From the NCBI GenBank assembly GCA_013360195.1, contig JABWCQ010000015.1, forward strand, positions 1 to 64,000: a stretch of DNA of 64,000 bases. The letters are read 5' to 3'. The position numbers and the translations under genes are program-made. The notes under the pieces were generated by a model, which worked only from the letters and a program-made list of their open reading frames with translations, did no database searches and was not told the DNA's origin. The first letter of the stretch is position 1; the number at the start of each line of letters is the position of its first letter. Source of the stretch: a bacterium. GTDB taxonomy: Bacteria > Electryoneota > RPQS01. Positions 1,395 to 24,163 of the stretch are shown here, piece by piece.

Positions 1395-4300
1395 ATGCTG
1401 ACAAACAGTCTTCCGATCGGTCGTCCAATTCATCTGCATGGTCACTTTGACGTTCCCGTAACTCTCGAAGATGCGCGACCGTTAGGTGCAGGGTACGAAC
1501 TGCTTGTGCGAACGCCAGACGGAATCCTTGATGAAGTTATTGTCACAGCAGACGAGATTGCGCTAATTCTCCAGACTGACCAGACAGATGATTCTTCGGT
1601 CATAACCGCGCCTTCAGGGACAATCCAGTTGCTCGTGGAGTCGAATCGCATTCGTCTTGCTTATGCGCATGATAGACAGTTTGCAGTAAGCCTCTCCGGC
1701 ATTCGAACGTTGCCGCATCAGATCGAGGCTGTTTACCAACACATGTTGCCTCAGCCAAGATTACGCTTCTTATTGGCAGATGACCCAGGTGCAGGCAAAA
1801 CAATTCAAGCGGGTCTTTTGCTCAAGGAAATGAAGCTTCGTCAGGCAGTTGAACGTGTGCTCATTCTTTGCCCGGCGCCGCTATGCATCCAATGGCAAGA
1901 CGAAATGCTTAGGTGGTTCAGCGAACCGTTTGACACCATTGATTCATCGGTAGACAAGCAACAGCTAATTAATCCTTGGCAACGACACTCCCAAGTTATA
2001 GCGTCAATCGACTATGCAAAGCAGGATGAAGTTCGCGAAAGAATTTGGCAACAAAGATGGGACCTTCTGATTATTGATGAAGCACACAAGTGCTCGGCTC
2101 GTTCAGCTCCCGGCGGCATTGGTCGTGAATCAAGAGTTACCACAACGAAACGGTATGAGCTAGCATTGAAGCTCACTGCCCAGGCAGATCACGTACTACT
2201 TCTCACCGCAACTCCGCATCATGGCGATGATGACCAGTTCGGACATTTCCTGCGCTTGATCGATCCCGATCTCTTCCCGGAACCGCATCGACTAAAAAAG
2301 CAGTCGACAGACATTCGCAAAGAAATATTTCGACTCGGAACAGAATGCCCGTGGTCGCTTCGCCGGTTGAAGGAAGATCTCCGCGACATGCGAGGTCATC
2401 GGCTATTCCCAGACCGTCATGCGCGCACTGCAACTTTCTGCTTAAACGCCGAAGAGTTTGCATTGTATAAATCTGTTACGCGCTATATTAACGAATACAT
2501 GCCGCAGCAACCAGGCACACGTCGCTCATCAGCAGCACTTGCACGCACAGTGCTCCAGCGACGCTTGGCAAGCTCGACGTACGCGATTCATGAATCCCTG
2601 AAAAGACGACTACTTAAACAAGAAGCCCTGCTTAAAGAACTTGAAGAGTTAACTCCAGAGCAACGTCAGAAGCGTTTGGGTAAGTTGTCAGGTAGGCAAC
2701 CAGATATTGAAATGGACGAGGACGACTTGGACGATGAAGCGCGTGACCAAGTCATCGACGACTACATCGGCGTGGCTGAACTTGACCAGATTCGCGAAGA
2801 GATCTTCGAACTACAACGATTAGTCGACCAAGCACGAAATGTCAGGGATCGCGCAATCGATTCCAAACTTAATGAGTTAAAGAAGTGTCTAGGTGAAGCC
2901 GAGTTTGCAGACTTGAAGGACGGGCGTGGCAAGTTGCTGCTTTTCACCGAGCATCGTGACACGTTGAACTACATTCGCGGCCACCTGGAACAATGGGGAT
3001 ATACAACGTGCGAAATTCATGGTGGTATGAATCCTCACCAGCGGAAGTTTGCGCAAGAGCAATTTAGGACACAATCCCAGGTTTGCGTCGCAACTGAAGC
3101 GGCAGGCGAAGGAATCAATCTCCAGTTTTGTCATTTGATGATTAACTACGACATGCCTTGGAACCCGACGCGATTGGAACAACGGCTTGGCCGAATACAT
3201 CGAATTGGACAAGAACGTGATGTCTACGCATTCAATTTCGTAGCGACAGAGTCGGAATTGGGTGACCCGATCATCGAAGGTCGAATTCTCAGCAGGCTCC
3301 TAGAGAAATTGGAACAAATGAACGATGCATTGGGTGGAAGAGTTTTCGATGTCATTGGTGAAGTGCTATCCCTTAACGACGTAAACCTTCCGGAAATTCT
3401 TCGTGAAGCTGCTTATGATCCGCGGCGCCTCGATGAGTACATTGATCAAATCGACCGCATAGACCCACATCGATTGAAAGAGTACGAAGAGTCTACCGGC
3501 ATTGCGTTAGCAAGGAGCTTCGTTGACTTTAAAGATTTTCAGCACAAGAGCCTCGAAGTTGAAGAACGCAGATTGATGCCGCGATATGTTGAATCACACT
3601 TCCTGAAAGCTGCAAAGGAAGTAGGACTTCGTGTGGAACAGCGCGCTGACGGACTATTTAGGATCGAACACGTCCTGCAGGATCTTCGGTCAGAACGCCT
3701 TCGTTCCGTGGCGAAGGTCGGGAAAGCGGACACACAGTACAAGAAAGTCACCTTTCAGAAAGAGGTACTTGAACAAGACGCCCACTTGGACGCAGTGCTA
3801 GTCGGTCCGGGACATCCGCTTTATGCAGCAGTGGATGAAAAGCTGACGGAAAAACTTGCGCCAAGTGTTGGAATGTCCGGTTTCTTTGTGGACCCATTTG
3901 CGGCAACCCCGTATCAGCTTCACTTCTTTGAGATCGCGATTAAAGGCAAGGACATCAAGGGGCAGGATACCATATTGCACGGCGAGCTTGTTGCGGTCAA
4001 GGAACAAGCAGACAATTTCGAGATTGTACCTTGCGATTCTTTGCTGGACTTGCTGCCACACGAGCACATACCAGAAGCATGGCAAGCATCAAGCACGCAG
4101 GGCGCATCTGACTTCTTGAAGAGTGGCTACCAGCTCGAATGTCGTGCTCGGGTTCAATCTGAACGGGAGAAGATTGTCGGCGTGGTTCGAGAATATCTTG
4201 CAAACTCGTTCAAAGCGAGAATTCGACGCGCACAAGAACGTTACTACGACCTCTTGCCGCAATCGCGCGAGAATCCTGACTACAAACTTGCAGCAGATGA

Positions 4301-4883
4301 AGCCTTAAAGCGCGTCGGAGAGTTGGAACGATCTCGTGATGAACGTATGTCAGGACTGGACCGCCTTGCAGTGGCTCGTACAGGCCCCGTGAGACATGTT
4401 GCGACAGCGGTTGTTCTAACAGCGGACAGTGATGTGGATGAACAGTTGTCGGCGCTTGCTGACGAACTTGATCCCGACATCCGCAGGAAGAGTGAACTTG
4501 CTGCCGAAGATGTAGTTATCGCAGCTCTTATCGCAGAGGGCTTTCCCGAAGACCGAATTCAGCGTGTCGGACATCTGAAGCTGGGGTTCGACATTCGTGC
4601 GCACCGAATCAAAGATGCCGAAACAGGCGAGGTGGATGTTCGCCGGATTGAAGTGAAGGGTCGAGTTAAAGGTCAGCCCGTGCGATTGACTACTAATGAG
4701 TGGTACAAAGCGCAACAATTAGGTGACACGTACTGGTTATCTGTAGTCTGGAATCCGACGAGTGCAAAACCGGAACATGTCGCTATCAAGAATCCGGGTG
4801 TTGTGCTTGATCATGCGAAGCGCGAAATCATGGCTGCACGGTTTTACGAAATATCAGCGGATGCTATCAGAACCGCAATATAA
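1395..4883 (+). CDS. SNF2/DEAH-type helicase with C-terminal DUF3883-like domain
   Basis: An 1162-residue superfamily 2 ATPase. Walker A (ADDPGAGKT) is near residues 128-136 and the DEAH box (LLIIDEAHK) near 225-232. The C-terminal helicase lobe carries FTEHRDTL, VATEAAGEGINLQ and RLEQRLGRIHRIGQ around residues 515-615, the SNF2/RapA-like arrangement. A charged coiled middle follows. The last about 100 residues (IEVKGR, then TTNEWYKAQQLGDTYWL) match the DUF3883/'NO VEIN' C-terminal domain, a restriction-endonuclease-like fold. This is the first gene of an operon with an AAA-TOPRIM protein, a DUF1156 methylase and a DUF499 ATPase. In that family context it is the translocase of a predicted DNA-modification-linked defence system, related to the helicases of DISARM class 1 and Hma-type systems. 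No obvious ribosome binding site precedes the ATG. Confidence 0.88.
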   Translation: MLTNSLPIGRPIHLHGHFDVPVTLEDARPLGAGYELLVRTPDGILDEVIVTADEIALILQTDQTDDSSVITAPSGTIQLLVESNRIRLAYAHDRQFAVSLSGIRTLPHQIEAVYQHMLPQPRLRFLLADDPGAGKTIQAGLLLKEMKLRQAVERVLILCPAPLCIQWQDEMLRWFSEPFDTIDSSVDKQQLINPWQRHSQVIASIDYAKQDEVRERIWQQRWDLLIIDEAHKCSARSAPGGIGRESRVTTTKRYELALKLTAQADHVLLLTATPHHGDDDQFGHFLRLIDPDLFPEPHRLKKQSTDIRKEIFRLGTECPWSLRRLKEDLRDMRGHRLFPDRHARTATFCLNAEEFALYKSVTRYINEYMPQQPGTRRSSAALARTVLQRRLASSTYAIHESLKRRLLKQEALLKELEELTPEQRQKRLGKLSGRQPDIEMDEDDLDDEARDQVIDDYIGVAELDQIREEIFELQRLVDQARNVRDRAIDSKLNELKKCLGEAEFADLKDGRGKLLLFTEHRDTLNYIRGHLEQWGYTTCEIHGGMNPHQRKFAQEQFRTQSQVCVATEAAGEGINLQFCHLMINYDMPWNPTRLEQRLGRIHRIGQERDVYAFNFVATESELGDPIIEGRILSRLLEKLEQMNDALGGRVFDVIGEVLSLNDVNLPEILREAAYDPRRLDEYIDQIDRIDPHRLKEYEESTGIALARSFVDFKDFQHKSLEVEERRLMPRYVESHFLKAAKEVGLRVEQRADGLFRIEHVLQDLRSERLRSVAKVGKADTQYKKVTFQKEVLEQDAHLDAVLVGPGHPLYAAVDEKLTEKLAPSVGMSGFFVDPFAATPYQLHFFEIAIKGKDIKGQDTILHGELVAVKEQADNFEIVPCDSLLDLLPHEHIPEAWQASSTQGASDFLKSGYQLECRARVQSEREKIVGVVREYLANSFKARIRRAQERYYDLLPQSRENPDYKLAADEALKRVGELERSRDERMSGLDRLAVARTGPVRHVATAVVLTADSDVDEQLSALADELDPDIRRKSELAAEDVVIAALIAEGFPEDRIQRVGHLKLGFDIRAHRIKDAETGEVDVRRIEVKGRVKGQPVRLTTNEWYKAQQLGDTYWLSVVWNPTSAKPEHVAIKNPGVVLDHAKREIMAARFYEISADAIRTAI

Positions 4884-4893
4884 GGACTCAAGT

Positions 4894-6786
4894 ATGTCAG
4901 CTGACCAACCAGAGCTTTTTGAAGACTCTAAGGTGGACTATCCTGCCGCTTACTTGCCTGTAGCGAACAGCCCGCTTTACGTGAGCAAATTGACAGTCAA
5001 AAACTTCAAGCGATTTGTTAATACCGAGATAACACTGCCTCAGTATGCTGTTCTGACAGGTGTAAACAACTCGGGCAAGAGTACGATTCTCCAGTCGATC
5101 TCTGTGGCATTCGAATGTCTTCGCCTCTGTGTCAACCACACATCGTGGCAGGTACAAACAGTGGGGAGGACATTGTCGGGTTTTGATTTTCTACCCGTAA
5201 ACGAACCACGCGATCTCTGGCACGGCAGGAAATTTCAAAGTCAGAATACATGGATGCCGATTACCGTGCGAGCGGAATTGTCGAATGGGTTCTATTTTGA
5301 GACACAATTGAATTTCTATTTCGGTGGTCTAAACCTAAAAGTGACGGACTGGAACAAGGCGATGGGGGCCGATGCAATAAAAGATGCGTTGGCAATGTCA
5401 CCAATGCTTATTCCAGGCCATGTTGAACTCTCACCTCACGAAGAGTATCGCGTACCCGCACAGATTCACCGCCATGCTATCGCAGGACAATTATCTTCAA
5501 TACTCCGTAACGCACTGCTTACTCTTAGCCAGGTATCGACCGGCACGCCTAGTGCTCCTGGGTTCGATTTTGTTGCCGATGCTGTCAAACGACATTTTGG
5601 CTTAGATGTGCAGCGAGTGGCTTTCGACGAGCTTCGCGACCTTGAAATTCGCGCTCCATATCGAGAAGGAACGCATGACCTCGACATAGTATCTGCCGGC
5701 TCGGGACTTCACCAGATTCTGAAGATCTGTACGTTTATTGCATGGCGAAAAACAAGCGTAGTTTTGCTCGACGAACCTGATGCGCATCTTCACACATCAT
5801 TGCAAACTCAACTGGCAGGTTTCCTTCAAGAACTCGTGCGAACTTTTGGACTGCAAGTTATTGTGTCAACCCACTCGAAAGACCTGATTTCTTGTTCTCC
5901 CATTGAATCAGTATTGCCGGTTGATCCTAGTTCTACGACAATCAAGCCTATCGACCAAGTTGAACACTTGTTAACCGAGTACAGGAAACTTGGACAATTG
6001 AGCAATCTCGATATCGCTTTGCTCTTTCAAAGTAAGCGATGCTTGTTTGTTGAGGGTCAAACGGATGAATCTCTATTGCCAACCCTAGCGCAGAAACTAA
6101 AGAAAAACCTCTTCACAGGTGCAAATCAAATAGTTATTTTCCCGTTTCGAGGTGTTGACAAGTTCACGATGATTAAAGATCTTGCAGAATTGTTTCAGAG
6201 GATGATAGGTAGCAACCTCAGTTGGTACGTTTTGCGTGACAGAGACGTTGCGCCTCCTGAAATGCTTGAACATCAAGCAGGGACAGCAAAATCCAAAGGA
6301 ATTGAGCGTTTTCACATATGGAATCGCTACTCAATTGAAAACTACCTTATCGATCCTTCTACTGTGCGTGCAGCAGTTACGTCAGCAGCAGACAAGGCCG
6401 GGAAAACTGTCCCTTCTGGAACAGAGATAGACACATGGCTTTGGGATGCATCAGAAATTGTATACAAGTCAACACGTTCAGATTTTGTTGAAAAGGTGCA
6501 ATTTTATTATGTTCGGAACGAAGTAGGATCTGACATGAATGACAGTCGGACAAAGGGAACGAATGCTGCGCTAGCTTACTTAGACAATTGCAAAGACTTG
6601 CAAACACGAATTGAAGTTCTTCGCGGAACTGAAATCTTTGGCCAGTTTGTAGGGATTCTTCAAAAACACACTGGTCTCACAATTCGTTTAAATGATTTAG
6701 TGGACTGTCTTACACCCGAAAACGCACCTATTGAACTATTGAAGTTTTTCGATGAACTGGATTCATTAAGTGCATCAAATTCATAA
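4894..6786 (+). CDS. OLD-like AAA ATPase with C-terminal TOPRIM nuclease domain
   Basis: I chose the ATG at 4894, ten bases after the helicase stop and preceded by AAGGA; a longer frame would overlap the helicase. The protein is about 630 residues. The ABC-type ATPase half has Walker A (GVNNSGKST, residues 56-64), Walker B (VVLLDEPDAHLH) and an H-loop (VIVSTHSKDL). It then enters a TOPRIM-like domain with CLFVEGQTDE and YVLRDRD, the Glu and DxD type metal ligands of OLD-family nucleases. OLD proteins cut or nick DNA and are often anti-phage effectors (Gabija GajA is a relative). It is not a standard component of Hma or DISARM operons as I know them. Placed second in the operon, it may be the nuclease that the other genes lack. 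Confidence 0.85.
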   Translation: MSADQPELFEDSKVDYPAAYLPVANSPLYVSKLTVKNFKRFVNTEITLPQYAVLTGVNNSGKSTILQSISVAFECLRLCVNHTSWQVQTVGRTLSGFDFLPVNEPRDLWHGRKFQSQNTWMPITVRAELSNGFYFETQLNFYFGGLNLKVTDWNKAMGADAIKDALAMSPMLIPGHVELSPHEEYRVPAQIHRHAIAGQLSSILRNALLTLSQVSTGTPSAPGFDFVADAVKRHFGLDVQRVAFDELRDLEIRAPYREGTHDLDIVSAGSGLHQILKICTFIAWRKTSVVLLDEPDAHLHTSLQTQLAGFLQELVRTFGLQVIVSTHSKDLISCSPIESVLPVDPSSTTIKPIDQVEHLLTEYRKLGQLSNLDIALLFQSKRCLFVEGQTDESLLPTLAQKLKKNLFTGANQIVIFPFRGVDKFTMIKDLAELFQRMIGSNLSWYVLRDRDVAPPEMLEHQAGTAKSKGIERFHIWNRYSIENYLIDPSTVRAAVTSAADKAGKTVPSGTEIDTWLWDASEIVYKSTRSDFVEKVQFYYVRNEVGSDMNDSRTKGTNAALAYLDNCKDLQTRIEVLRGTEIFGQFVGILQKHTGLTIRLNDLVDCLTPENAPIELLKFFDELDSLSASNS

Positions 6787-6864
6787 GTGTCTGTCGTCCA
6801 TTGAATGGCGATGTCACGCTGAGCAAGAATTGGCCCCAACCTCACGACGAGAAGTTTTAAAGCA

Positions 6865-9846
6865 ATGCCCAATAATCAAGGTAACTCCCCTCGCCTAATA
6901 GAAGATTACTTGCCGATCGAGGCAATTAGTAAAGAAGCCTCGCGGGAGAAGAGTGTCCGCAAGGGACATATTTCGACTTTGCATTTGTGGTGGGCTAGAC
7001 GACCTTTGGTTGCTTGTCGCGCTGCCGTGTATGGCGCGCTAGTGCCTAAATCGCGGTTTGTGCCGGAGAACGGTCCGGACAATAAGAAGCAGAGTCTGGG
7101 GCGGGCCAATGCCGCGAAATTTGTTGAGCGGCTGTGCAAGTATCCCGGTGATCCGAAGGTTATCAAGGAAGCCGAGCAGCATATTCTGGAAGCGCACGCC
7201 GAGCGACTGACTGAAGAGTTAGGCAAGAAGGTCACAGTCGAGGATATTCGCGAGGGGCGCGCACCGAGGCCGAAGGTGCTGGATATGTTTGCAGGCGGTG
7301 GAGCAATTCCGTTGGAAGCGTTGCGGCTGGGATGCGAAGCGTATGCGTTGGATTTGAATCCTGTCGCGCACATTATTGAACTGTGCACGCTGGTCTATCC
7401 GCAGAAGTACGGCAAGCCTGATCCGAACGCAAAAGGAATGACGGGACCGAACGGCACGTGGGGTGGGCTGGCCGACGAAGTGCGCTACTGGGGGGAGTGG
7501 GTGCTTGAACGCGTGAAGGCAGAAATCGGCGACTTATATCCGCCGATACCTGATCCAGCTGCGCCCACGAGTCGAGTGGAATTCGGAAAGAACCAAACCG
7601 AGCTTGCGGCCAAGGGGTTTGAAAGCAAGCAGGCAAGTCTTGGTGAAGAGACAACAGACGAGAAGTTCCTGACACCGGTCGCCTATTTGTGGACACGGAC
7701 AGTGACCTGCAAAAATGCTGCGTGCGGTGCAACGGTTCCGCTCGTGCGTCAGACATGGCTATGCAAGAAGGCGAAGCGCTACGTTGCGCTGAAGATGATT
7801 GCGCCGAGCGGAGCGAAGAAGGTGCGCTTTGAAGTTGTGGAAGCGACGACTGAAAAAGGACTGGGGTTTGATCCGGCTGGCTTCAGCAGGGCTGGGAACG
7901 CAACCTGCCCCTTCTGTGGAACTGTTGCAGACGCCAATTACGTTCAGGATTGTGGAAAAGGTAGGGTAGTTGGGCGACAGCTAATGGCAATTGTTGCGGT
8001 CAGGCCTTCCTCCCGCGGAAAGGTATACATCTCGTCCAATGATTTGCCCAGCCAGTTCATTCCGGAAGACGCACACATTCAAGCTCGACTAACTGACCTT
8101 CTACATAAGACTGGCCTGGAACTGCCGCACGAACCAATTAACCCAGTTCGTCCATCACCCAATGCGCGCGGGATGTCTGCCGTAACGCGTCACGGGCTTT
8201 TGACCTTCGCTGATCTTTTTACGACGCGACAAATGCTAGTTCTTGTTTCGCTGACGGAAGCAATCGCGGCCGGGGAATGGATGTGCAATCGGGACGATGA
8301 ACGAGGTCGCGCAATTTCCGCCTACCTTGCCGCAATGACGAACAAAATTGCTGATTACGGTAGTACTCTGTGCAGATGGATAAGCCAAACCGAGGCAACT
8401 TCAGATACATTTGCTCGCCATGCGCTGGCGATGTTAACAGACTTCGTTGAGCTGGCGCCATTCGGTTCCACTGGATCGAACGCTCATTCAATTCTCGCAT
8501 CACAACTGGACGCTATTAGAAGCGTATGGTCGGACACGAACTTTGCGGAAGTTTTAAGAGGAACTGCAACTGAGCTGCCATCATCTTTGGAGAGAATTGA
8601 CGCTGTAGTTACAGATCCGCCGTACTACGACAACGTTCCGTACGCAGATATCTCGGACTTCTTTTACGTTTGGATGAAACGATCGCTTGGCCGCGCTTAC
8701 TCGGACCACTTCTCTTCCGATCTAACGCCAAAGAAACAAGAAGTGACAGCTCTTTCAGGACGATTCGACGGCGACATGGAAAAGGCCAAGTCAGAGTACG
8801 AGCGTATGATGTTCGAATCGCTTAGCCAATCATCGAAAGCACTTAAGCCAGCAGGAATAGTAACAATTGTGTATGCACACAAGACCACTCTCGGCTGGGC
8901 AACCTTGGTTGATGCTATGAGAAGGGCAGGGTTGACTGTCACTGAAGCGTGGCCCTTGGAAACAGAGCGCTCAGCCAGGCTACTCGCCATAGAGACAGCC
9001 TCACTCGGTGCTTCGATATTTCTCGTTGCCCGCAAGCGTGAAGGAACTCGTACAGGCTCCTATGAATCCGAAGTACGTCCACAGATTGAATCCATCGTCA
9101 GCGAACGCGTCGAGACATTGTGGGAAATGGGAATCAGCGGTGCAGACTTGGTGATTGCGGCGGTCGGAGCAGGTTTGAAAGCCTACACGCAGTTTGCGCG
9201 TGTGGAGAAGGCGAACGGCGAAGAGATGCCTGCCGAAGGCTTCTTGGCCGAAGTGGAAGGCGTGGTGCTGAACTACCTGCTGAAGAAGATTTTCAAAGAT
9301 GCCCGCACCAACGTGGAATCGCTTGATGGCACTGCACGCTTCTATGTGTTGTGGCGCTATGCGTACGGCAACGCTGATCTCGACGCAGGCGAGGCGATTG
9401 TCATGAGCTATGGACAACCCGTAGAACTGGACGGTCCGAAAGGACTATCGAACGGTGTCAATGCACTGCTTGCCAAGAAGAAGGGGACGTACCATCTGCG
9501 TGACTTCACCGAACGCGGCGACGATGACAAACTGGGTTTGCCGGAAGGCAGCGAACCTGCTCCATTGATGGATGTGCTGCATCGCGTACTGTGGTTGGTC
9601 GAGCATCAACCGCGATCCTTGAAATCCTATCTCGACCAAGCGCAGCCCAACCCTGAACACCTACGCCTTGTTGCCCAAGCCCTCGCAGGCCCCGCACTAA
9701 AAGGCAACGTCGAATCCACCGAAACACTTGTTACCACGACTACAGCGGAGCAATCTGCACTCGGCAAGCTGCTGGCGAATTGGCGCGGGCTGGTTGAACA
9801 GGGGTTATTTAATCCGGCGCCAGCACAAGGGACGTTGGGAGTCTAA
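6865..9846 (+). CDS. DUF1156 DNA methyltransferase with zinc ribbon
   Basis: A 993-residue protein. The N-terminal DUF1156 signature (EAISKEASREKSVRKGHIST, LHLWWARRPL) is followed by the SAM-binding motif DMFAGGG (residues 140-146). Four cysteines in CKNAACG and CPFCG make a zinc ribbon in the insert. The catalytic motif DPPYYDNVPY starts at residue 584. The motif order is that of amino-methyltransferases acting on adenine N6 or cytosine N4 in DNA. In this operon it is expected to mark host DNA so that the helicase/ATPase machinery spares it. The spacing of 78 bases from the previous gene is the largest in the operon. The long C-terminal part (about 700-993) is helical and probably contacts partner proteins; that is inference. 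Confidence 0.9.
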   Translation: MPNNQGNSPRLIEDYLPIEAISKEASREKSVRKGHISTLHLWWARRPLVACRAAVYGALVPKSRFVPENGPDNKKQSLGRANAAKFVERLCKYPGDPKVIKEAEQHILEAHAERLTEELGKKVTVEDIREGRAPRPKVLDMFAGGGAIPLEALRLGCEAYALDLNPVAHIIELCTLVYPQKYGKPDPNAKGMTGPNGTWGGLADEVRYWGEWVLERVKAEIGDLYPPIPDPAAPTSRVEFGKNQTELAAKGFESKQASLGEETTDEKFLTPVAYLWTRTVTCKNAACGATVPLVRQTWLCKKAKRYVALKMIAPSGAKKVRFEVVEATTEKGLGFDPAGFSRAGNATCPFCGTVADANYVQDCGKGRVVGRQLMAIVAVRPSSRGKVYISSNDLPSQFIPEDAHIQARLTDLLHKTGLELPHEPINPVRPSPNARGMSAVTRHGLLTFADLFTTRQMLVLVSLTEAIAAGEWMCNRDDERGRAISAYLAAMTNKIADYGSTLCRWISQTEATSDTFARHALAMLTDFVELAPFGSTGSNAHSILASQLDAIRSVWSDTNFAEVLRGTATELPSSLERIDAVVTDPPYYDNVPYADISDFFYVWMKRSLGRAYSDHFSSDLTPKKQEVTALSGRFDGDMEKAKSEYERMMFESLSQSSKALKPAGIVTIVYAHKTTLGWATLVDAMRRAGLTVTEAWPLETERSARLLAIETASLGASIFLVARKREGTRTGSYESEVRPQIESIVSERVETLWEMGISGADLVIAAVGAGLKAYTQFARVEKANGEEMPAEGFLAEVEGVVLNYLLKKIFKDARTNVESLDGTARFYVLWRYAYGNADLDAGEAIVMSYGQPVELDGPKGLSNGVNALLAKKKGTYHLRDFTERGDDDKLGLPEGSEPAPLMDVLHRVLWLVEHQPRSLKSYLDQAQPNPEHLRLVAQALAGPALKGNVESTETLVTTTTAEQSALGKLLANWRGLVEQGLFNPAPAQGTLGV

Positions 9847-9864
9847 TCACGTTCTGAGGTTATA

Positions 9865-10527
9865 ATGAATCGACCCGATTTCTCTAACTACGTCGCGCAT
9901 TTCACGAAAGCTCCACAAAAAGGTTTTACCGGCAAGGATTCAGCAGCCGAGAGTCAGATTGCGGCAGTAAGTGGCGGTGCGATTGGTCGCCTTATTAGCA
10001 TACTAACGAGTCGAACAATCTTGGCAACCAACATGCCTTGGACTGGCTTACCAGCGGTTCCTTTCACAGAATGTCCGTGGTGGTCATTAATAGACCATAC
10101 TGCACGGTACTCACCTTACGGTGTCGGGTTCACAAAGGAGCATCTATTTAATTCGGGTGGCGCTCCTGCGATATACATGCGCCCTGATCATTACAATAAA
10201 CAGAAGTACAATCCGGGCTGGAATCCACATGTGGATGCCTTCGTCACTCCCTATGCGCCCAAACATGCATTCAAAACGGCATTCAAGAACAGATATGCGC
10301 ATTTGAATCGAAAAGGACACGGGACAGATTATTCTCACGAACGCGAGTGGCGAGTACCACACAATTTTACGTTTGAGTTGTCAGCGGTTCAGTTTGTTGT
10401 AGTGAAATCACATCAAGATGTTGCAACGGTAGTCAATTCGATTGGGACAGGATTGAGTCAGGACAAGTTTCTTATCATGGACATGTACAAGCGGATTGAA
10501 GAACTCTGGCCAACACACAAGATTTAG
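9865..10527 (+). CDS. AbiGi/DUF2971-like protein
   Basis: A 220-residue protein 18 bases after the methylase, with a TGAGGT ribosome binding site. It has the pattern HFTK near the N-terminus, FTECP then YGVGFTKEHLF in the middle, and HEREWRVP near residue 160. This order (HFT, FTE/D-x-P, YG-x-GF, ER-EWR) is what I associate with the AbiGi abortive-infection family and the DUF2971 group. I assign it by pattern memory only. The biochemical activity is not known to me. In the operon it sits between the methylase and the DUF499 ATPase, a slot where accessory or toxin-like genes are often inserted. It could instead be a small regulatory subunit. Confidence 0.55.
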   Translation: MNRPDFSNYVAHFTKAPQKGFTGKDSAAESQIAAVSGGAIGRLISILTSRTILATNMPWTGLPAVPFTECPWWSLIDHTARYSPYGVGFTKEHLFNSGGAPAIYMRPDHYNKQKYNPGWNPHVDAFVTPYAPKHAFKTAFKNRYAHLNRKGHGTDYSHEREWRVPHNFTFELSAVQFVVVKSHQDVATVVNSIGTGLSQDKFLIMDMYKRIEELWPTHKI

Positions 10528-10536
10528 AAACATAAA

Positions 10537-13452
10537 ATGAACAAAGTAACTCTTCGCCCTTGGACAGAACTCGTCCGCCTTCATCCTGATGTCGAATCAG
10601 GGGCACTGAACGATTCCGATTTTGCTATTGACCTCGGAGCTATTGCAGAAAATAGTCCGACACTTCCAGCTGTCTATCGGGATCCGCAAGCCTTTTTCGG
10701 TGCAACCTACATCACGACCGATCTTTCGCGATTGCTTGATGAAGTGCTCGCATCGTTAGCGGGGAAAGGCAAATACAATCGTGTCCTGAAACTGCGCACA
10801 CCGTTTGGTGGGGGTAAGTCACATACCCTTGCCACGTTGTTGCACGCCGCAAGATCGCGGATGAAATTGACTGGCGTCCCAGAACTTGAAGGCTATGCCA
10901 AACCGGACAACGTGGCTGTGGCTGTGTTCGACGGCGAGAAGTTCAGCGCGAAGATGAAGGAGATGGTGGAAGGTGTTACAATCCAAACGATGTGGGGTTG
11001 GATTGCGTGGCAGATAGATCCGAAAAAGGCATGGCCTATTGCGGAGCCTTTTGATCGAGACCGCGTTTCGATGAGCGGTGATGACATTCGCAAGCTCCTG
11101 ACTGTTGGTGCCAACGGTCGTCCTGTTTTGATCTTGATCGACGAACTATTGAAGTACGCGGAGCGGGCTGGCGCCGTAGTCATTGGTGATTCCACTATGC
11201 AGCGGCAAGTGAAAGACTTCATCGGAAACCTGACGGTTGAAGTTGCGAATAGCAGTAACTGGGCGATGGTGTATTCCTTGCCATGGAGCAACAGCAAAGA
11301 AGCACTGAACCATCTTTCGCTATTCCAGGAACTCGACCATATTGCTGACCGAGTGGATCAATTGCGCGAGCCTGTGCAAGGCGACGAGGTCTTGCATGTC
11401 ATTAAGAAAAGGCTTTTGGGCGGGACACCACCTGACGACGCTGCACAGAAAGCGGCCGATGTTTACAGTGGAATAGTAAGCGGCATGCAACGATCGCATT
11501 CCGAGACTGATGCCGGGCGACGACAGGCAGAGGAAGAAGGCATTGCACTGCGGGACCGCATTCAGAAAGCCTATCCCTTCCATCCTGCTCTGATAGACGC
11601 AATGAAAGACCGTTGGGCATCGCTTGATGCATATCAGCGTACACGTGGCGCGATTCGCTTCATCGGTCGTGTGCTACATGCGATGAAGAAAGAAGGCACC
11701 ACAGCATCATTGATTGGTCCGGGCGACATTCCGCTGAAGTCGGCTGAAGTTCGTTTGCAGATGCTGAAGGAGCTTGGCGCACAGAACGACTACGATGCCG
11801 CGATTTCACAAGACATTACTGGACCGTCGGCTCGGGCAAAACAGATTGATGACCGTTTGGCCAGGGAAACGCCGTCACTTGCAAATGTGCGACCGGCCAC
11901 TAGACTCGCAACGGCAATTCTGGTTTATTCGTTTGGCGGGCTGAAGCGAACTGGCAAAGACGAATCGGAACATCTTCCTCCAGGAGTCACCGAGAGTGAG
12001 TTGCTTGCAGTGTGTGTTGGTCCTGATTTAGACAATATCACGGCAAAGTCGGTGCTGGCCGACTTGAAGAATCTATGCGTCTATCTGCACTATGACGGCG
12101 TTCGCTACTGCTTCAAGAAAGACCCAAACGTCGTCAAGCTGATTGAAGACGAGCAAAAGATTGTAACAGAGAAAGAAGTTCTTGACCGCGTTCGGAAACA
12201 ACTGTTTGATAAACTTGCCGGTCAAAAAAGCGCCATTGTTTGGCCTGAAGACTCAACGAAAATCCCGGATGGTGAACCGCAGTTTCTATTAGGCTACATG
12301 CCGCTTGATTTTGCAGTGTTACCATCAGATGAGCAACAAAAGCAGGCAATGACACTGTTGTTTCAGTATGGGAATAAACCAAGACGGTATCGAAATGGTC
12401 TCGGTCTTGTCGTACCAGATAAGCGTATGGCAGAGGGCATAAAAAGAGCGATTCGGTCAGTCATCGCAATAGAACGTGTTGACTCGAAACGCAAATCGCT
12501 TAGGCTAACCGACCAGCAAGTTGATGAATTGAAGGAGAGAAGACGTACGGATGAACTTGCAGCCGAGTCCGCCTTCAAGGATCTTTACAATTCTGTTTGG
12601 TTGCCGATTATGAATGAAACTGAAAGTGGAAGGGCCGAAGGTATCGAGAAGGTTACCAACACTGGCAGACCGCTGCAATCTACAGAGATTCACAATCGTG
12701 TGATGGAGTTGTTGACGATTGGCAAACAACAAGTGTTTTCCACAGTCACACCGAGAAAGATGACTGAACGAATAGGCTTTGGTGAAGTTGGCCCCGATGG
12801 GCAGCCACGACTCGGACTATTGGTTGCGAATGTTGTGGACAGTTTCTATGGAATCCTCGGTTTCCACGAACCTCCGCGCTTGGAGTCGGCAGCTGCGATA
12901 CGAAAGGCTGTCGTGAAAGGTGTACAAGAAGGTCTGTTCGGATACACGAGCGGCAACACTCCTACTCTTGGAACGTCAGGGAAGTTCGATGTCAATCCGA
13001 ATCGCGTTGTGCTTAATCGCATGATGTCCGAGGATGAGGTAGATATCGAATCAGGTTTCATCATCGTTCCGACCGCAATTCCGACTCCAGAAACACCCGT
13101 GACGACGTCTTCCGGTGATACTCCCAATGTGTCAGGAGGAGTCGATTCCGGCGGCGACACTACTCGCGGGGCTTCAATCACGGTCGATGGACCTGTGTTA
13201 GGAGGTAGCGCAATTCAGCCACCTGGTGGTCAAAAGGTTGAAAGCATACCTGCAGTCACGATAAAGTTCCGGGCAAATAGTGACCAGGTCTTCAAGGTAT
13301 TTAAGGCCGTTGCAAATCTGGCAGACCAAAGTGATGAAGGAAAAGTCACCGTCACGATTGAAGGACGTTCAAGTCAAGGCATCAAGGTAAGCTGGCTGCG
13401 AAATGCCGTCGAGGAACCATTGGATGAAGCCGATGTAGAGAGGTTGAGTTAA
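10537..13452 (+). CDS. DUF499 AAA ATPase
   Basis: A 971-residue protein starting nine bases after the previous stop. The N-terminal region has the DUF499 Walker A variant TPFGGGKSHT (about residues 89-98) and a Walker B of the form VLILIDELLKY (about residues 195-205). Helical domains occupy the middle. A low-complexity Gly/Ser/Thr/Pro linker (about residues 855-905) leads to a small C-terminal domain beginning TIKFRANSDQVFKVFKAV. DUF499 ATPases almost always occur beside DUF1156 methylases and SNF2 helicases in predicted defence loci, and are the ATPase of Hma-type systems. It is the last gene of the operon. A 10-base palindrome followed by six T (13483-13498) lies after it, but the loop is too short for a normal terminator. 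Confidence 0.87.
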   Translation: MNKVTLRPWTELVRLHPDVESGALNDSDFAIDLGAIAENSPTLPAVYRDPQAFFGATYITTDLSRLLDEVLASLAGKGKYNRVLKLRTPFGGGKSHTLATLLHAARSRMKLTGVPELEGYAKPDNVAVAVFDGEKFSAKMKEMVEGVTIQTMWGWIAWQIDPKKAWPIAEPFDRDRVSMSGDDIRKLLTVGANGRPVLILIDELLKYAERAGAVVIGDSTMQRQVKDFIGNLTVEVANSSNWAMVYSLPWSNSKEALNHLSLFQELDHIADRVDQLREPVQGDEVLHVIKKRLLGGTPPDDAAQKAADVYSGIVSGMQRSHSETDAGRRQAEEEGIALRDRIQKAYPFHPALIDAMKDRWASLDAYQRTRGAIRFIGRVLHAMKKEGTTASLIGPGDIPLKSAEVRLQMLKELGAQNDYDAAISQDITGPSARAKQIDDRLARETPSLANVRPATRLATAILVYSFGGLKRTGKDESEHLPPGVTESELLAVCVGPDLDNITAKSVLADLKNLCVYLHYDGVRYCFKKDPNVVKLIEDEQKIVTEKEVLDRVRKQLFDKLAGQKSAIVWPEDSTKIPDGEPQFLLGYMPLDFAVLPSDEQQKQAMTLLFQYGNKPRRYRNGLGLVVPDKRMAEGIKRAIRSVIAIERVDSKRKSLRLTDQQVDELKERRRTDELAAESAFKDLYNSVWLPIMNETESGRAEGIEKVTNTGRPLQSTEIHNRVMELLTIGKQQVFSTVTPRKMTERIGFGEVGPDGQPRLGLLVANVVDSFYGILGFHEPPRLESAAAIRKAVVKGVQEGLFGYTSGNTPTLGTSGKFDVNPNRVVLNRMMSEDEVDIESGFIIVPTAIPTPETPVTTSSGDTPNVSGGVDSGGDTTRGASITVDGPVLGGSAIQPPGGQKVESIPAVTIKFRANSDQVFKVFKAVANLADQSDEGKVTVTIEGRSSQGIKVSWLRNAVEEPLDEADVERLS

Positions 13453-14651: not shown

Positions 14652-15755
14652 ATGTCAATACTAAGCGAGGGCGATCACATACGCGGATCCTACCGGATTG
14701 AGCGGATGATTGGGGAAGGTGCGTTCGCCGAAGTTTACCGCGTGCAGCACCGGTTCTTAGGCCGTCAAGCCATGAAAGTGTTCAAGGATGAAGTCGAATC
14801 CCTTGAAGATGTCGAGCGTATGCTCTCCGAGGCTGTACTGCTCTCCAAAATCGGGCACCCCAACGTGATTCGCGTTTTTGATGCAGACGTTCTTGAACGT
14901 AAAGATGGTCATTTTGGCTTTTTTACGATGGAATACGTCCCTGGAGGCAGCCTTGACAGTTACTGGAGGTCCTATCGCAATTCCTTGATGCCTGTGAAAG
15001 ATGCAGTTGAAATCCTACAGCAAGTATGCGCGGGAATCGGTCTTGCTCATTCAGAGAATCCCCCGATTGTCCACCGTGATATTAAGCCACAAAACATACT
15101 AATAGGTTATGATGGCAGCGGCACTCGGGTTCGCGTGGGCGACTTTGGCCTAGCCAAACGAGTTAATCCTCTAACGTTATTGGTGAGTGCGCGAGGAACC
15201 CTTGGATTCAAGCCACCAGAATCATTCGAGAATATGGACTCACCGGCTGCTGATGTTTGGTCTCTCGGCACCACGTTGTATCTGTTATTGACAGATTCGT
15301 TCCCTTACCCCGAGCTTGTCGACCGAGACATAGCGAAAGGAGTCACGAATTTAGGGAAGGCACGTCCGCCAAGCTTCTATAATGCAATTGTGGATGAATG
15401 GTTGGACTCAATCGTTTCTAAATGCCTTTACTTAGATCCAGCCGCACGCTATCCAACAGCAATTGATCTTGGTCGAGACCTGATAAGGTGGCAAAACGAA
15501 AGTGATCAAGAAGAAACATCAAAACGCGTTTTCGTGGAGTCCGGTAGCTCAAAGGACATTCTTGGATCGAACAAGGAAATGGGAAAGTCGGGTGATGCGA
15601 AGATCAAGGCTAGTCGCGCACTGGAGTTAGCGAAGCAACCGGGGAGGCTTACGGAAGCCGCTGACCTGCTCGAGGAGGCAATTACCAAGCTACCTGACAT
15701 ACGTGCACAGTATGAGCCGCTGATTCGGCTGTGGCGCCGTGGCATATGTATGTAA
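14652..15755 (+). CDS. Serine/threonine protein kinase with TPR-like tail
   Basis: A 367-residue cytosolic Hanks-type kinase. All catalytic elements are visible: the Gly loop (GEGAFAEVY, residues 21-29), the ATP-anchoring K42 (AMKVFK), E60 in the C-helix, HRDIKPQN (141-148), DFG (164-166) and a PPE in place of APE. There is no transmembrane segment, unlike PknB-type receptors. After about residue 285 a charged linker leads to a helical repeat-like tail (SRALELAKQPGRLTEAADLL). The start is firm: GGAGG lies 8-10 bases upstream of the ATG. It is the first gene of a four-gene operon with a J-like membrane protein, a GrpE-like protein and an Hsp70, so its targets are probably these chaperone proteins. 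That last point is inference. Confidence 0.9.
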   Translation: MSILSEGDHIRGSYRIERMIGEGAFAEVYRVQHRFLGRQAMKVFKDEVESLEDVERMLSEAVLLSKIGHPNVIRVFDADVLERKDGHFGFFTMEYVPGGSLDSYWRSYRNSLMPVKDAVEILQQVCAGIGLAHSENPPIVHRDIKPQNILIGYDGSGTRVRVGDFGLAKRVNPLTLLVSARGTLGFKPPESFENMDSPAADVWSLGTTLYLLLTDSFPYPELVDRDIAKGVTNLGKARPPSFYNAIVDEWLDSIVSKCLYLDPAARYPTAIDLGRDLIRWQNESDQEETSKRVFVESGSSKDILGSNKEMGKSGDAKIKASRALELAKQPGRLTEAADLLEEAITKLPDIRAQYEPLIRLWRRGICM

Positions 15756-15778
15756 GGAACCATGAGCGATAGGATACT

Positions 15779-17632
15779 ATGAGCACCGGTCGTCATGTTA
15801 TTGAAGAGAAACTTGGCGAGATTGCCACGCCGGAAATCTACAGGCGAAACGCGTTTCGTGTACTTGGGCTGCGAACGGATGCAAGTCCCACAGATGTACG
15901 GCGCATTGGAAAAAGACTGGAAACAGCCCTCAAGGTCGGGTCAGAGATCAAGGTGAGTAGAGTTCCACCATATTCTGCCGAAATCACAGTCGACGAAGTG
16001 ACAGCCGCGATTCATGTCCTTCAAGATCCTATCAATCGCATTGTGCATGAGCTGTTTTGGTTCTGGCCGATGGAGGCCGAGGGATCAGATGATCGAGCAA
16101 TACTTCTTCTCGAGCAAAACGATCCAAATGGAGCAATCGCGATTTGGAACGAGGCGATTACTACGAAACGAAAACGCTCCAAGGCGACTCACAATCTTGC
16201 AATGTTATTTCACACGTGGGCGCTCTGGTTTGAGAACCTTCACAAAAAGGGACAACTGGCTCAAGACGATATTGCGAAGATGGCTAATTACTGGGAATTA
16301 GCCTATCACTATTGGTATCAGTCTATCGGCTATCCAGGCTTCCGCGTCCAACTGGAGACCCGTATTGCAGAGATCAGCGATCCTCGACTTACGCCAGAGT
16401 CGGCCGAGGTCATTGATGATGCGCTCATTAATTCAGTGATTCGCATCAGCGTTGGGGTTGCTATTGCACATGCGACTAGTGGACACACGAAGTCCGCACA
16501 TACGACCTTCGCACGTCTCCGCGAAGGCCCGTTCGATAAGGACTCGATCTACCAAGTAGTAAAAGAGTGCATTCTGCCCGAAACAGAGCGAGTCAAAGCA
16601 GCATGCAAGAATGTAGGGGCAGAACTAAAGGATGAACCCAAATTAGGCCACGCGCTTGCAAACAGGCTTGTTAAGGATACCGCGTTGCCGTTGTCGACGC
16701 TTGACGTATTCGTAACTTACGACGAAGAGGAGACAGCCGAAGACAGCGAGGAGGACATTGAAGACGAGGAAATTGAATGTTATGAACCGGCGTCTGCGTT
16801 GAAGTTGATAGTGGACCAGACTTACGACCTTGTAGCAGATACCATTGAGACGTGTGCAGGACAGTTTGTTCAGGCTACACATGAATGGCGAGAAGTAGGG
16901 TCTATCTTACACTTAGCACGTAGGTTTGCTCGTAGCCAGCTTCTGATCAGCAGATTAGACGAAGCGATAGTCAATGTCGAATCAAGTATGGATGCTGTCG
17001 ACAATGCACACGCGTCGGTTCTGGTGGGTCAAGCAAACGAAGCGACTGAACATGGTGACTACTCCAAAGCAGCAGATTTGCTCAAACGCGCTTGGGAGAT
17101 ATGTAAAGATAAGACGTACAAACAGCAGATATATGGATGGTGGCAGAGTGCGAAGGTACAGCCATCAGCAGAGAACGCTGACACGAAGGACCATATCTCG
17201 ACGCATGCGCGAACAAGTAATTGGCGGAAATCACTCCCCTATCTAATAATTATTGCTATTGTAGTATTCATCTTTGTGAATGATCAGATCTCACGACGGG
17301 ATTTGGTGTCCACTAGAAGCGCGATTGAGCTGGAGAGATCTGAACTACGGGGAATGGAGGGCGAAATCGCTGGCTTGGACTCTGTCTTGGGGATCATGAA
17401 AAATGAGCTTCAGTCATATCGCGCGCAAGTCAACAAGTTTGAGTGGCAGATTGCGAATGGTTTGGACGTCAACAAGCTAGCGTATGACGCTGCGCTTAAG
17501 AGACATAACGAGTTGGTAAAGCGGCACAATGCATTAGTCGCAGATAGAATCAGTAAGTACTCGTTGTATGACGCGAAGCTCAAGTCGTTTAACGAACGGG
17601 TGCGACAATACAACGCAGGAGCAAGGCGATGA
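15779..17632 (+). CDS. Membrane-anchored protein with degenerate J-like N-terminus
   Basis: 617 residues, 23 bases after the kinase. Residues about 23-95 resemble a J-domain: NAFRVLGLRTDASPTDVRRI for the first helices and AAIHVLQDPINRIVHELFWF for helix III. The HPD loop that activates Hsp70 ATPase is missing. Helical, TPR-like repeats follow (AILLLEQNDPNGAIAIWNEA), then a very acidic stretch near 318-335. One membrane helix (PYLIIIAIVVFIFV, about residues 490-505) and a long coiled-coil tail to residue 617 complete it. The topology would put the J-like and TPR region on one side of the inner membrane and the coiled coil on the other. Next to a kinase and Hsp70, it looks like a membrane recruiter or sensor for the chaperone. 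Function is inferred, not known. Confidence 0.72.
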   Translation: MSTGRHVIEEKLGEIATPEIYRRNAFRVLGLRTDASPTDVRRIGKRLETALKVGSEIKVSRVPPYSAEITVDEVTAAIHVLQDPINRIVHELFWFWPMEAEGSDDRAILLLEQNDPNGAIAIWNEAITTKRKRSKATHNLAMLFHTWALWFENLHKKGQLAQDDIAKMANYWELAYHYWYQSIGYPGFRVQLETRIAEISDPRLTPESAEVIDDALINSVIRISVGVAIAHATSGHTKSAHTTFARLREGPFDKDSIYQVVKECILPETERVKAACKNVGAELKDEPKLGHALANRLVKDTALPLSTLDVFVTYDEEETAEDSEEDIEDEEIECYEPASALKLIVDQTYDLVADTIETCAGQFVQATHEWREVGSILHLARRFARSQLLISRLDEAIVNVESSMDAVDNAHASVLVGQANEATEHGDYSKAADLLKRAWEICKDKTYKQQIYGWWQSAKVQPSAENADTKDHISTHARTSNWRKSLPYLIIIAIVVFIFVNDQISRRDLVSTRSAIELERSELRGMEGEIAGLDSVLGIMKNELQSYRAQVNKFEWQIANGLDVNKLAYDAALKRHNELVKRHNALVADRISKYSLYDAKLKSFNERVRQYNAGARR

Positions 17633-18144
17633 CCATGGATTATCGCAGGCGTCCCATGGTGTTTTCTGACGACACTAGCGCCGAATCAACCAAGAAGATA
17701 ACGAAGAACAAGGCCGAAACATTGACACATCTTGAACTGAACAGCCAGCTTGTGCAGTCAATCGTCGTAGTTGCTACCGCTCTGTGGCGCATTCAGACAG
17801 CCATCAACCGATCGAATAGTGCCGCTGATGACCTTACGATCAAGATTGCGCGACACGTGGATGTGGCAATCGAGTCGCTAAAGAACGCGAAGGTCGAGTT
17901 GCGTGCGTACACTGATGAACCATATACGTCCGGAATGGCTGTCAACATACTAGCGATCCAGCCTACTGCAGACGTAACTCAGGATACTGTGGGAGAAACG
18001 GTCAAGCCTACAATCTACTTTAGAGATTACATCGTTCAGAGAGCCGATGTAATCGTATTTCGTCCGGAGAATCAAAGTACAACCGCAATGAATAGTTCCG
18101 AAAATAAGGACGGAGACCAGTCCAAGGAGACTAATCTTGAATAG
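17629..18144 (+). CDS. Small GrpE-like protein (candidate nucleotide exchange factor)
   Basis: A 171-residue protein whose ATG overlaps the previous stop by four bases. A helical N-terminal half (LELNSQLVQSIVVVATALWR) precedes a short beta-like part. That part reads AYTDEPYTSGMAVNILAIQP, then ETVKPTIYFRDYIVQRADVI and VFRP. The ending (E-T-[IV]-x-P-x-[IV]-[YF]...[DG]-x-[VI]-I-V) resembles the C-terminal beta domain of GrpE-type nucleotide exchange factors found beside noncanonical Hsp70 genes. Its place directly before hsp70 agrees. I see no classical GrpE motif, so the call stays tentative. The AAGGAG near its 3' end serves the next gene. Confidence 0.5.
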   Translation: MTMDYRRRPMVFSDDTSAESTKKITKNKAETLTHLELNSQLVQSIVVVATALWRIQTAINRSNSAADDLTIKIARHVDVAIESLKNAKVELRAYTDEPYTSGMAVNILAIQPTADVTQDTVGETVKPTIYFRDYIVQRADVIVFRPENQSTTAMNSSENKDGDQSKETNLE

Positions 18145-20647
18145 GATGACAATTGACTTTGGCATAGATCTGGGCACCACCAACAGCTCCGTTGCGGTGC
18201 TTAGAGATACTGGCGTCGAGGTCATTAATAACCAAGATGGTTCTGTTCTCACTCCGTCAGCAGTATGGTACAACAAGAATGGCAGTCTGCGAGTTGGTGC
18301 AGAAGCCAAAGCGAGATTCGTCGATGACCCCGACAACGCTGCGACAGAATTCAAGTTGAGAATGGGCGAGCCAGCTCGCAAGGAGTTCAAGCGTGTTGGT
18401 AAAACCATGCTACCTGAAGAGCTGTCAGCCGAAGTACTCAAGTCCCTGAAGTCTGATGTACACGTCGGTCTTGGAGAGGATTTAAGGGCGGCGGTCATTA
18501 CCGTTCCTGCCGCGTTCGATGAGCCGCAGTGCAGCGCAACAACGCGAGCGGCTAGGCTTGCGGGGCTCGAAGTGTCGCCGCTCTTGCAAGAGCCGGTCGC
18601 CGCAGCCATGGCGTATGGTTTTCAAAGCAGCATATCAAGAGCATTTTGGCTTGTATTTGATTTCGGTGGAGGAACTTTCGACGCTGCTGTCATACAAGTG
18701 CGAGATGGTCTGATTCAAGTAGTAAATCACGCAGGGGACAATTTTCTTGGTGGTAAGAACATTGATTGGGATATCGTTGACAAACTCTTGGTGCCAAAGC
18801 TCGCGGCTGAACGAACGTTGCCAGATTTCGACCGACGGAATGTAAAATGGCGGGCCGCATTCGGTAAGCTAAAGAACGCAGCAGAGAAGGCAAAAATAGC
18901 CGTATCTCGGACGCGAAAGCCGACACTTATAGAGATTGATTACCTGTGCAATAACGCTGACGGAGATCCGATAGATTTCACATCTGAAGTCAACCCAAAT
19001 GAGATACAGCGCCTCATTGACCCTTGGACAACACAGGCCGTTAGCTTATGTAAGCGAGCACTAAGCGAGAAGGGACTTTCAGGTCATGACCTCGAAAAGA
19101 TAATCCTGGTCGGTGGTTCATCCTTGTTTCCCTGGTTACAGGAGAAGATAAGGGAGGAAATCGGTTCTGCGATAGATCATTCGATTGATCCGCTCACAGT
19201 TGTTGCACGCGGGGCGGCCATCTTCGCAGGGACACAGAAACTCGATACTGCCACCAAGGCAACAAAGGCTGCAGGCTTCACGATCATGTTAGAGTATGAG
19301 CCCGTAGGAAGCGACACAAATCCTACAATTGGTGGTCGCGTTTTTCATCCGAAAGTAGAATCATTCAATGGCTTCACAATTGAAGTGTCAGAAGAAAGAA
19401 GCAAGTGGAGAAGCGGAGTTCACCGGCTCACGGAAATCGGCACATTTCTCACGGAAATTCTCGCAGAAAAGGGACGCCGCAATGAATATGTGATAAGGCT
19501 GATGGACCCACAAGGAACAGTACTACAATGCACTCCAGGCGGTTTCACTTATACGGTTGGAATGGTAATCACCAGCCCTCCGTTACCGCACTCCATAGGC
19601 ATCGCGCAGGCGAACAATAAACTCGATTTACTGCTTAGGAAAGGTCAGGGATTGCCAGCAAAAACACCTGCGGTCAAGCATAAATGCGCTGTTGCACTAA
19701 GAAAGGGAGAACCAGCCTCTAAGGGAAATACAATTAGAATTCCGTTTGTTGAAGGCGAACACGAATCTAAAGCTGATCGTAATCGACTTATCGGGTATCT
19801 TGAAATCCGACCGGATGATCCAAGAGTGAAGCGAGATATCCCATATGGCAGCGATGTTGAGATCGTTGTTGAAATAGACACATCACGTGTAATAAGAGTG
19901 AAAGCGTATGTTCCTGTTCTGGATGAAGAGTTTGATGACTTGTTCAAATCCCACTATGAACCAAAATCCCCGCAAAGTCTTGCAGATGAATTCCGGGAAG
20001 AGCACGAGCGTCTCACATCATGCTTAGTGAAGGCAGCCGATTTAGAGGTTACTAAGGCCCTCCAAGAAGTGGAGCGGCTAGAGCAGGCGCAGATTGTAGA
20101 TGTTGTAGACAGACAGGTAAGAGCTGCCCAAAGTGACGCAGATGCCCGTGGCGAGGCCGAGAAAAAGTTGCTTGACATGCGAGCGGCAGTGGATTACATT
20201 GAGGACATACTGGAGCTCCCGCAGTCAATAGAAGCCGCACAACAGCAGTTGATGAATACCAGAGAGATAGTGACGCAATATGGTACCTCGCGCGAGAAAG
20301 AGTACTTCCGCATCATGGAACGTGACTTGTCTGTGGCCATTCAGCATGATGCAATTGAGGTAATAAGAGCGAAGCAAGATGAATTATGGTCCTTGGGGTC
20401 AGTCATTGTTCAACGTCAGCCTTGGTTTTGGATTGAGTACCTTGAGTACTTGAAGTCGCGCAAGGAAGCATATAGTGATGCGGCACTTGCAAAGCGCCTT
20501 CTTGCTCAGTCTGCAGCAGCTGTTCAATCGAATGACATTGAAGCACTAAAAGCGGTCATTCGCCAGTTGATTGGGCTGCTTCCTCAAGATGAGCAAAGCG
20601 AGGCGCAAGAGAGGGGAAGATTCGCTGGGACAACAATTAGGCATTAG
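18137..20647 (+). CDS. Divergent Hsp70 (DnaK-like) chaperone
   Basis: About 836 residues against about 640 for DnaK. The nucleotide-binding domain is intact: IDLGTTNSSVAV, ITVPAAFDEPQ, LLQEPVAAAMAYGF, VFDFGGGTFDAAV and KIILVGGSSLFPWLQ. After about residue 385 comes an insert of about 110 residues, then a recognisable substrate-binding beta domain (LLRKGQGLPAKT, VEGEHESKADRN, LGYLEI-type strands). A long coiled C-terminus follows, with no EEVD-like end. The start is ambiguous: TTG at 18137 has AAGGAG at ideal distance (six bases), while ATG at 18146 follows the previous stop by one base. It closes the kinase operon. No substrate or client is suggested by the sequence. It is not the housekeeping dnaK, because grpE and dnaJ proper are absent here. 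Confidence 0.9.
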   Translation: MNRMTIDFGIDLGTTNSSVAVLRDTGVEVINNQDGSVLTPSAVWYNKNGSLRVGAEAKARFVDDPDNAATEFKLRMGEPARKEFKRVGKTMLPEELSAEVLKSLKSDVHVGLGEDLRAAVITVPAAFDEPQCSATTRAARLAGLEVSPLLQEPVAAAMAYGFQSSISRAFWLVFDFGGGTFDAAVIQVRDGLIQVVNHAGDNFLGGKNIDWDIVDKLLVPKLAAERTLPDFDRRNVKWRAAFGKLKNAAEKAKIAVSRTRKPTLIEIDYLCNNADGDPIDFTSEVNPNEIQRLIDPWTTQAVSLCKRALSEKGLSGHDLEKIILVGGSSLFPWLQEKIREEIGSAIDHSIDPLTVVARGAAIFAGTQKLDTATKATKAAGFTIMLEYEPVGSDTNPTIGGRVFHPKVESFNGFTIEVSEERSKWRSGVHRLTEIGTFLTEILAEKGRRNEYVIRLMDPQGTVLQCTPGGFTYTVGMVITSPPLPHSIGIAQANNKLDLLLRKGQGLPAKTPAVKHKCAVALRKGEPASKGNTIRIPFVEGEHESKADRNRLIGYLEIRPDDPRVKRDIPYGSDVEIVVEIDTSRVIRVKAYVPVLDEEFDDLFKSHYEPKSPQSLADEFREEHERLTSCLVKAADLEVTKALQEVERLEQAQIVDVVDRQVRAAQSDADARGEAEKKLLDMRAAVDYIEDILELPQSIEAAQQQLMNTREIVTQYGTSREKEYFRIMERDLSVAIQHDAIEVIRAKQDELWSLGSVIVQRQPWFWIEYLEYLKSRKEAYSDAALAKRLLAQSAAAVQSNDIEALKAVIRQLIGLLPQDEQSEAQERGRFAGTTIRH

Positions 20648-24022: not shown

Positions 24023-24163
24023 CAAATCCACAATATGATCGTCGAGTGGTGCCATTTCTTGAGAATTATGGTCGTGATAATGAAGAACATGACCTGCACC
24101 CCATGGACTGGAGAGAGTCTCCAATAAGTGTTAAGTTTGTGGGAACAGAGGAAGGAGCTTTGG

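Follow-up and report, generated by a model that had tools for sequence, protein, structure and literature searches.

Hsp70 machines normally perform housekeeping work, serving many clients. The operon considered here lies in the window, by which we mean the whole 64,000-nucleotide stretch that was analysed (positions 1 to 64,000 of contig JABWCQ010000015.1, assembly GCA_013360195.1, from a bacterium placed in the phylum Electryoneota), and it encodes a Hanks-type Ser/Thr kinase, a membrane-anchored J-like/TPR protein, a small GrpE-like protein and an Hsp70. The set is real and recurrent, an Hsp70 machine of variant type in which a kinase is linked to the chaperones and the J contact is rewired. 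Among published proposals, the nearest is the theme of Hsp70, GrpE and DnaJ within the GAP1-N2 conflict systems (Kaur et al., 2020; PMC7159879), predicted systems in which Hsp70 and GrpE are likewise linked to a DnaJ- or TPR-containing protein. However, those systems are centred on a GTPase and include FNIII proteins, and their kinase sits in a separate, non-overlapping theme (PMC7159879). The GAP1-N2 domain (PF20013) was found in none of 12 genomes, the window genome and 11 with close relatives of the operon, whereas a Corynebacterium glutamicum control was positive, and Pfam scans of the window J-like protein and of related large proteins turned up no match to FNIII; on these grounds identity with a GAP1-N2 Hsp70 system was rejected.

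An Hsp70-like protein, CnuD or CnuCD, also occurs within the predicted type IV restriction defence of the CoCoNuT systems, where CnuD is described as having degenerate Walker A-like motifs and as being fused or linked to McrBC (PMC11090510). This identity was rejected as well, as the motifs of the operon Hsp70 are intact and a scan of the open reading frames (ORFs) and Pfam matches in the window operon revealed neither McrB nor McrC. With the defence kinases PD-T4-6, MAD6, PglW and those of the Stk type the operon shares a Hanks kinase domain, but the partner genes of those systems are absent from it. The PADLOC MAD6 and PD-T4-6 models match the window kinase over the generic kinase domain only, and membership of MADS was rejected on a score of 145.7 bits against an NCBIfam MAD6 cut-off of 460. 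As bNACHT25 requires the host DnaJ for phage sensing, chaperones can evidently feed immunity (PMC12169576), although it is a housekeeping DnaJ that is used there together with a NACHT effector, whereas the operon has chaperones of its own, with no NACHT protein observed. The open-access literature searched yielded no account of the four-gene set.

Recurrence and distribution of the gene set

The four genes lie on the forward strand in the order kinase (14652..15755; 367 aa; Pfam Pkinase, 6e-43), J-like/TPR protein (15779..17632; 617 aa), GrpE-like protein (17629..18144; 171 aa) and Hsp70 (18137..20647; 836 aa; PF00012, 2.7e-80), with intergenic spacings of 23, -4 and -8 bases, exactly as a preliminary description made from the letters of the window had placed them. 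The Hsp70 gene begins with a TTG that is preceded by a well-placed AAGGAG, and an ATG three codons further in (18146) is an alternative start. Scans for promoters and terminators gave results no better than chance.

The first relatives came from a search of plasmids, after which 84,980 species genomes were scanned with an Hsp70 alignment, yielding 80 loci, and further plasmids were added; two loci that proved to be one contig (L014 and L034) were counted once. Where the flanks were sufficient, that is, at least 7 kb before and at least 5 kb after the Hsp70 gene, all three partners were present in 40 of 49 loci, so that the recurrence in unrelated genomes on which the preliminary description had made its reading depend is seen across dozens of genomes. 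The arrangement kinase, J-like, GrpE-like, Hsp70 also occurs in Chloroflexota, Acidobacteriota and Proteobacteria, among them a gammaproteobacterial metagenome-assembled genome (L021), two Dehalococcoidia (L022 and L030), a member of the Anaerolineales (L023), two further loci (L024 and L025) and the cultured Edaphobacter modestus (L031), in which the J-like gene is split; in a member of the Pyrinomonadaceae (L032) the J-like and GrpE-like genes are swapped, and at L015 (genome G120) a J-like ORF stands at the 3' end of the locus. The wider family, mostly from Bacteroidota, has the J-like, GrpE-like and Hsp70 genes followed by a gene that joins a kinase or pseudokinase to an AAA+ ATPase, often with additional TerB-like and DUF6804 genes. 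At L050, L054, L055, L059, L065 and other Bacteroidota loci these encode a small DUF6804 membrane protein and a TerB-like protein downstream of the kinase-AAA+ gene. The Anaerolineales operon carries two tandem Hsp70 genes (L023:7536-12499), one far more diverged than the other.

The distribution of the set is patchy. A J-like profile found only five carriers among 386 diverse genomes, including the window genome, and each of the other four has a family kinase or Hsp70 linked to it; the C-terminus of the Hsp70 was found in 1 of 39 genomes of the window's own phylum. The window genome keeps separate housekeeping DnaK, GrpE and DnaJ elsewhere, and a separate housekeeping GrpE scored above the cut-off in 15 of 16 other carriers tested; the suspicion that the four genes might simply be a conserved housekeeping cluster can thus be set aside. 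The Hsp70 tree, which was made by a quick search and may include foreign contigs from metagenome bins, places the window in a supported clade of 13 rows that mixes Chloroflexota, Acidobacteriota, Pseudomonadota and Omnitrophota. As neither IMG/VR, searched with the Hsp70 alignment, nor a phage collection, searched with the Hsp70 C-terminus, returned a relative, the set does not look phage-borne. It is an accessory gene set, distinct from the housekeeping chaperones, and is most readily seen as one that spreads horizontally.

The chaperone subunits and the kinase

Like DnaK-DnaJ-GrpE, the operon combines an Hsp70 ATPase that has its catalytic residues and a peptide-binding beta domain with a GrpE-fold partner and a J-like partner. 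It differs in lacking HPD, Arg167 and the VLLLDVTP linker, in the length of its Hsp70 and the insert this contains, and in its membrane-anchored J-like/TPR protein, its linked kinase and its patchy occurrence. The PF00012 match covers only the ATPase domain of the Hsp70 (aa 8-367), which is followed by an insert of ~115 residues (about 368-481), a DnaK-type peptide-binding beta domain (about 482-596; hhalign probability 96.8, E 2.5e-10) and a long helical C-terminus. Equivalents of Lys70, Glu171, Asp194 and Thr199 are retained in 88-90 of 90 Hsp70 homologues, and the protein should therefore hydrolyse ATP. The canonical hydrophobic linker, on the other hand, is present in 0 of the 90, and the column equivalent to DnaK Arg167 holds Glu in 49, Gln in 13, Pro in 12 and Arg in just one. 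A third, partial Hsp70-like match (43.6 bits) was noted elsewhere in the host genome (G000:C1:194228-194722; L003).

Arg167 of DnaK contacts the aspartate of the DnaJ HPD motif. The J-like protein has no significant Pfam family in a single-sequence search, and it consists of a J-like domain (aa 16-100), an alpha-solenoid/TPR body, one predicted transmembrane segment near aa 482 and a C-terminal coiled coil. When its 85 N-terminal residues were compared with the PDB as a 25-sequence profile, the best matches were mostly DnaJ J-domains, each weak singly (best E 0.002), and the helices predicted by the AlphaFold model at 19-29 and 37-52 and, after a loop, at 71-82 and 84-92 follow the order of a J-domain. 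The model has a predicted local distance difference test score (pLDDT) of 89. A fold search of the PDB with the whole protein matches TPR solenoids only, and the J-domain reading accordingly comes from the profile search and the order of helices, without a fold match. The HPD motif occurs in 0 of the 25 J-like proteins aligned. The earlier description of a single-pass membrane protein with a J-like N-terminus is thus supported by the profile search and the predicted transmembrane segment, but in the absence of HPD it can be called a textbook J-protein only tentatively. With the replacement of Arg167, both halves of the DnaJ-Hsp70 contact are gone in the operon family, and they would seem to have been lost together, which may make this a natural system for studying how an Hsp70 is recruited without HPD. 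The J-like protein is so divergent that, used as a single-sequence query, it found no match in 60 relatives, in genome contigs or in plasmids; it was the Hsp70 alignment that proved useful as a query. In Edaphobacter, where the J-like protein is split into two ORFs (L031:7247-8188), its N-terminus reads as a putative response-regulator receiver domain, through which a signal might enter.

The small protein likewise has no significant Pfam family in a single-sequence search. It is built of helices followed by a beta domain, and its AlphaFold model, like the others made from alignments that left out plasmid proteins, has a core pLDDT of about 96. Compared with the PDB, the 12 best matches of this model are all GrpE chains (best E 8.9e-6), in keeping with what had been proposed for it from its sequence, and we regard the protein as having a predicted GrpE fold and as a putative nucleotide-exchange factor. 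Homologues are present in 71 loci, and in the alignment many of them bear a hydrophobic segment resembling a transmembrane helix together with a coiled coil.

The window kinase is complete, as first supposed, with K42, HRDIKPQN at 141 and DFG at 164 all in place; its C-terminal tail ends in LWRRGICM, and such a tail is common to several kinases of the window clade. Close relatives of it head the same operon in L021, L023, L024, L025, L030, L031 and L032, and throughout this clade the kinase is free-standing with catalytically intact motifs. To call the set kinase-led is hence apt for the window clade but not for most relatives, in which one protein unites a kinase or pseudokinase with AAA+. 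An HRD-bearing kinase fused to AAA+ marks an intermediate group (L034, L038, L041, L044 and L056). In many Bacteroidota copies the catalytic loop is HNE or can no longer be recognised, whereas the Walker A motif of the AAA+ is intact. The change from HRD to HNE, with an intact Walker A in the fused AAA+, was seen at L009, L070, L077 and L092 among others, and many of the Bacteroidota pseudokinase-AAA+ proteins terminate in or near IGF. The series from kinase to kinase plus AAA+ to pseudokinase plus AAA+ suggests a coupling of phosphorylation and unfolding, and their later separation.

Genomic company and possible roles

On plasmids, relatives of the operon have as their neighbours BREX, ZorA accompanied by an AAA/helicase pair, Gabija-like pairs of ATPase and helicase, restriction genes or genes for Tn7-like transposition. 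Around the outer-clade copies, 106 neighbouring ORFs match 205 PADLOC models compared with 7 for 106 control ORFs of the same genomes, a contrast with hand-picked, arbitrary control stretches that is no formal test and that counts models rather than genes, one helicase or kinase matching dozens of them. Because such counts inflate, the contrast is backed by named defence genes, which single-protein scans identified in 8 of the 12 outer loci examined: PsyrT (L047), Mokosh-like genes (L049 and L053), a DISARM-like helicase (L058, the Chryseobacterium gilvum locus), type I restriction (L061 and L069), a GajB-like helicase (L068) and TIR/restriction genes (L075). Recurrence near defence genes, about which the preliminary description had also asked, is thus seen as a strong statistical link in the outer clade and the plasmid relatives and is weaker in the window's own clade; the association with defence is good for the family and modest for the window's branch.

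Chances seem to us evenly balanced that the operon is best explained as an accessory, kinase-regulated, membrane-tethered Hsp70 remodelling machine, plausibly directed against phage or some other proteotoxic assault. We infer for it a physical complex, control by the kinase, a membrane orientation, a trigger and an outcome, and the kinase gating and phage sensing first proposed are readings of the same kind. These might fit together as follows. The J-like/TPR protein, anchored in the membrane, would bind a target via its solenoid, and its J-like domain would recruit the operon Hsp70 by a changed contact rather than by the HPD-Arg167 pair. The Hsp70 would then hydrolyse ATP and so remodel or disassemble the bound target, after which the GrpE-like protein would reset it. 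The kinase, whose place is taken in most relatives by a kinase or pseudokinase with AAA+, would act as the on-off switch, its probable substrate being the J-like or the GrpE-like subunit. The machine would most likely serve, as sensor or effector, in countering phage or other proteotoxic attack. A mobile Hsp70 set that is complete and comes with a kinase would imply that bacteria possess portable chaperone machines devoted to one particular job, which may be immunity.

It is tempting to go further and to picture an undescribed immune machine, a membrane-tethered, HPD-independent Hsp70 complex that surveys phage or damaged assemblies, or takes them apart, at the command of a dedicated kinase, one lineage being equipped with a pseudokinase-AAA+ unfoldase, but we hold this only tentatively. 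Several observations weigh against a role in defence or against the mechanism just outlined. The 90 neighbouring ORFs of the window clade yield essentially one AbiE pair, plus a kinase, so that the defence link of this clade rests mainly on the window itself; L015 sits among housekeeping genes; defence islands also hold cargo unrelated to defence; no effector, for example a nuclease or a pore, is recognisable; and a J-like domain without HPD could fail to stimulate Hsp70 at all. The scant defence signal around the window clade and the housekeeping neighbours in G120 would equally suit an accessory envelope or proteostasis machine outside immunity, an island-borne fitness module that extracts, disaggregates or helps to assemble membrane or cell-wall proteins under stress, the extraction falling to the AAA+ where this is fused. 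Pointing the same way are the membrane anchors that many copies have in their J-like protein, the transmembrane-like segments and coiled coils of many GrpE-like proteins, the linkage of relatives to SH3, peptidoglycan-binding and DUF6804 proteins, and the intact Walker A of the AAA+ in relatives. It is the patchy distribution and the marked excess of defence genes around outer-clade copies that speak against it; we consider this possible, if somewhat doubtful.

The complete Hma system that adjoins the window operon, together with the many different defence systems beside other copies, raises the alternative that the set is a regulator or quality-control partner of its neighbours, folding, activating or restraining their large proteins. 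Yet these partners are different at nearly every locus, and beside most loci of the window clade no defence gene is recognised. There is thus no sign of a dedicated client system, and such a role appears unlikely. A chance juxtaposition, or the decaying genes of a mobile region, might be suspected from the restriction-gene remnant upstream and the IS3-type element downstream, but recurrence in dozens of genomes already refutes it, and the overlapping genes and intact catalytic residues leave it next to no probability.

Flanks of the operon

The chaperone operon lies in a mobile region, as the preliminary description held. The operon upstream of it, earlier predicted to be anti-phage, is a complete Hma set by PADLOC models (1395..13452, forward strand) that adjoins the chaperone operon and lies outside it. 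It comprises the HmaA helicase (1395-4883; PADLOC HmaA, 2.3e-184), the HmaB methylase (6865-9846; 3e-124) and the HmaC ATPase (10537-13452; 3.9e-92), and it carries two extra genes on the same strand, one for an OLD/GajA-like ATPase (4762-6786) between HmaA and HmaB and an AbiGi-like gene (9865-10527; PADLOC AbiGi, 2.6e-6) between HmaB and HmaC. On plasmids of Shewanella and Aeromonas (L008 and L010), an Hsp70, a GrpE-like protein of 123 aa and an ATPase are found beside Tn7-like genes, and in the Aeromonas copy the Hsp70 is broken. Debris of insertion sequences had been reported on both sides of the window operon. Its left flank holds instead an 83-aa ORF (14173-14424) that matches the C-terminus of a type I restriction endonuclease subunit (T1RH-like_C, 7e-23) and is apparently the leftover of a lost restriction-modification system; on the right the claim is sound, in that a transposase pair OrfA/OrfB resembling the IS3 family, judged from the ORF sequences, lies downstream of the operon at 24128-25326.

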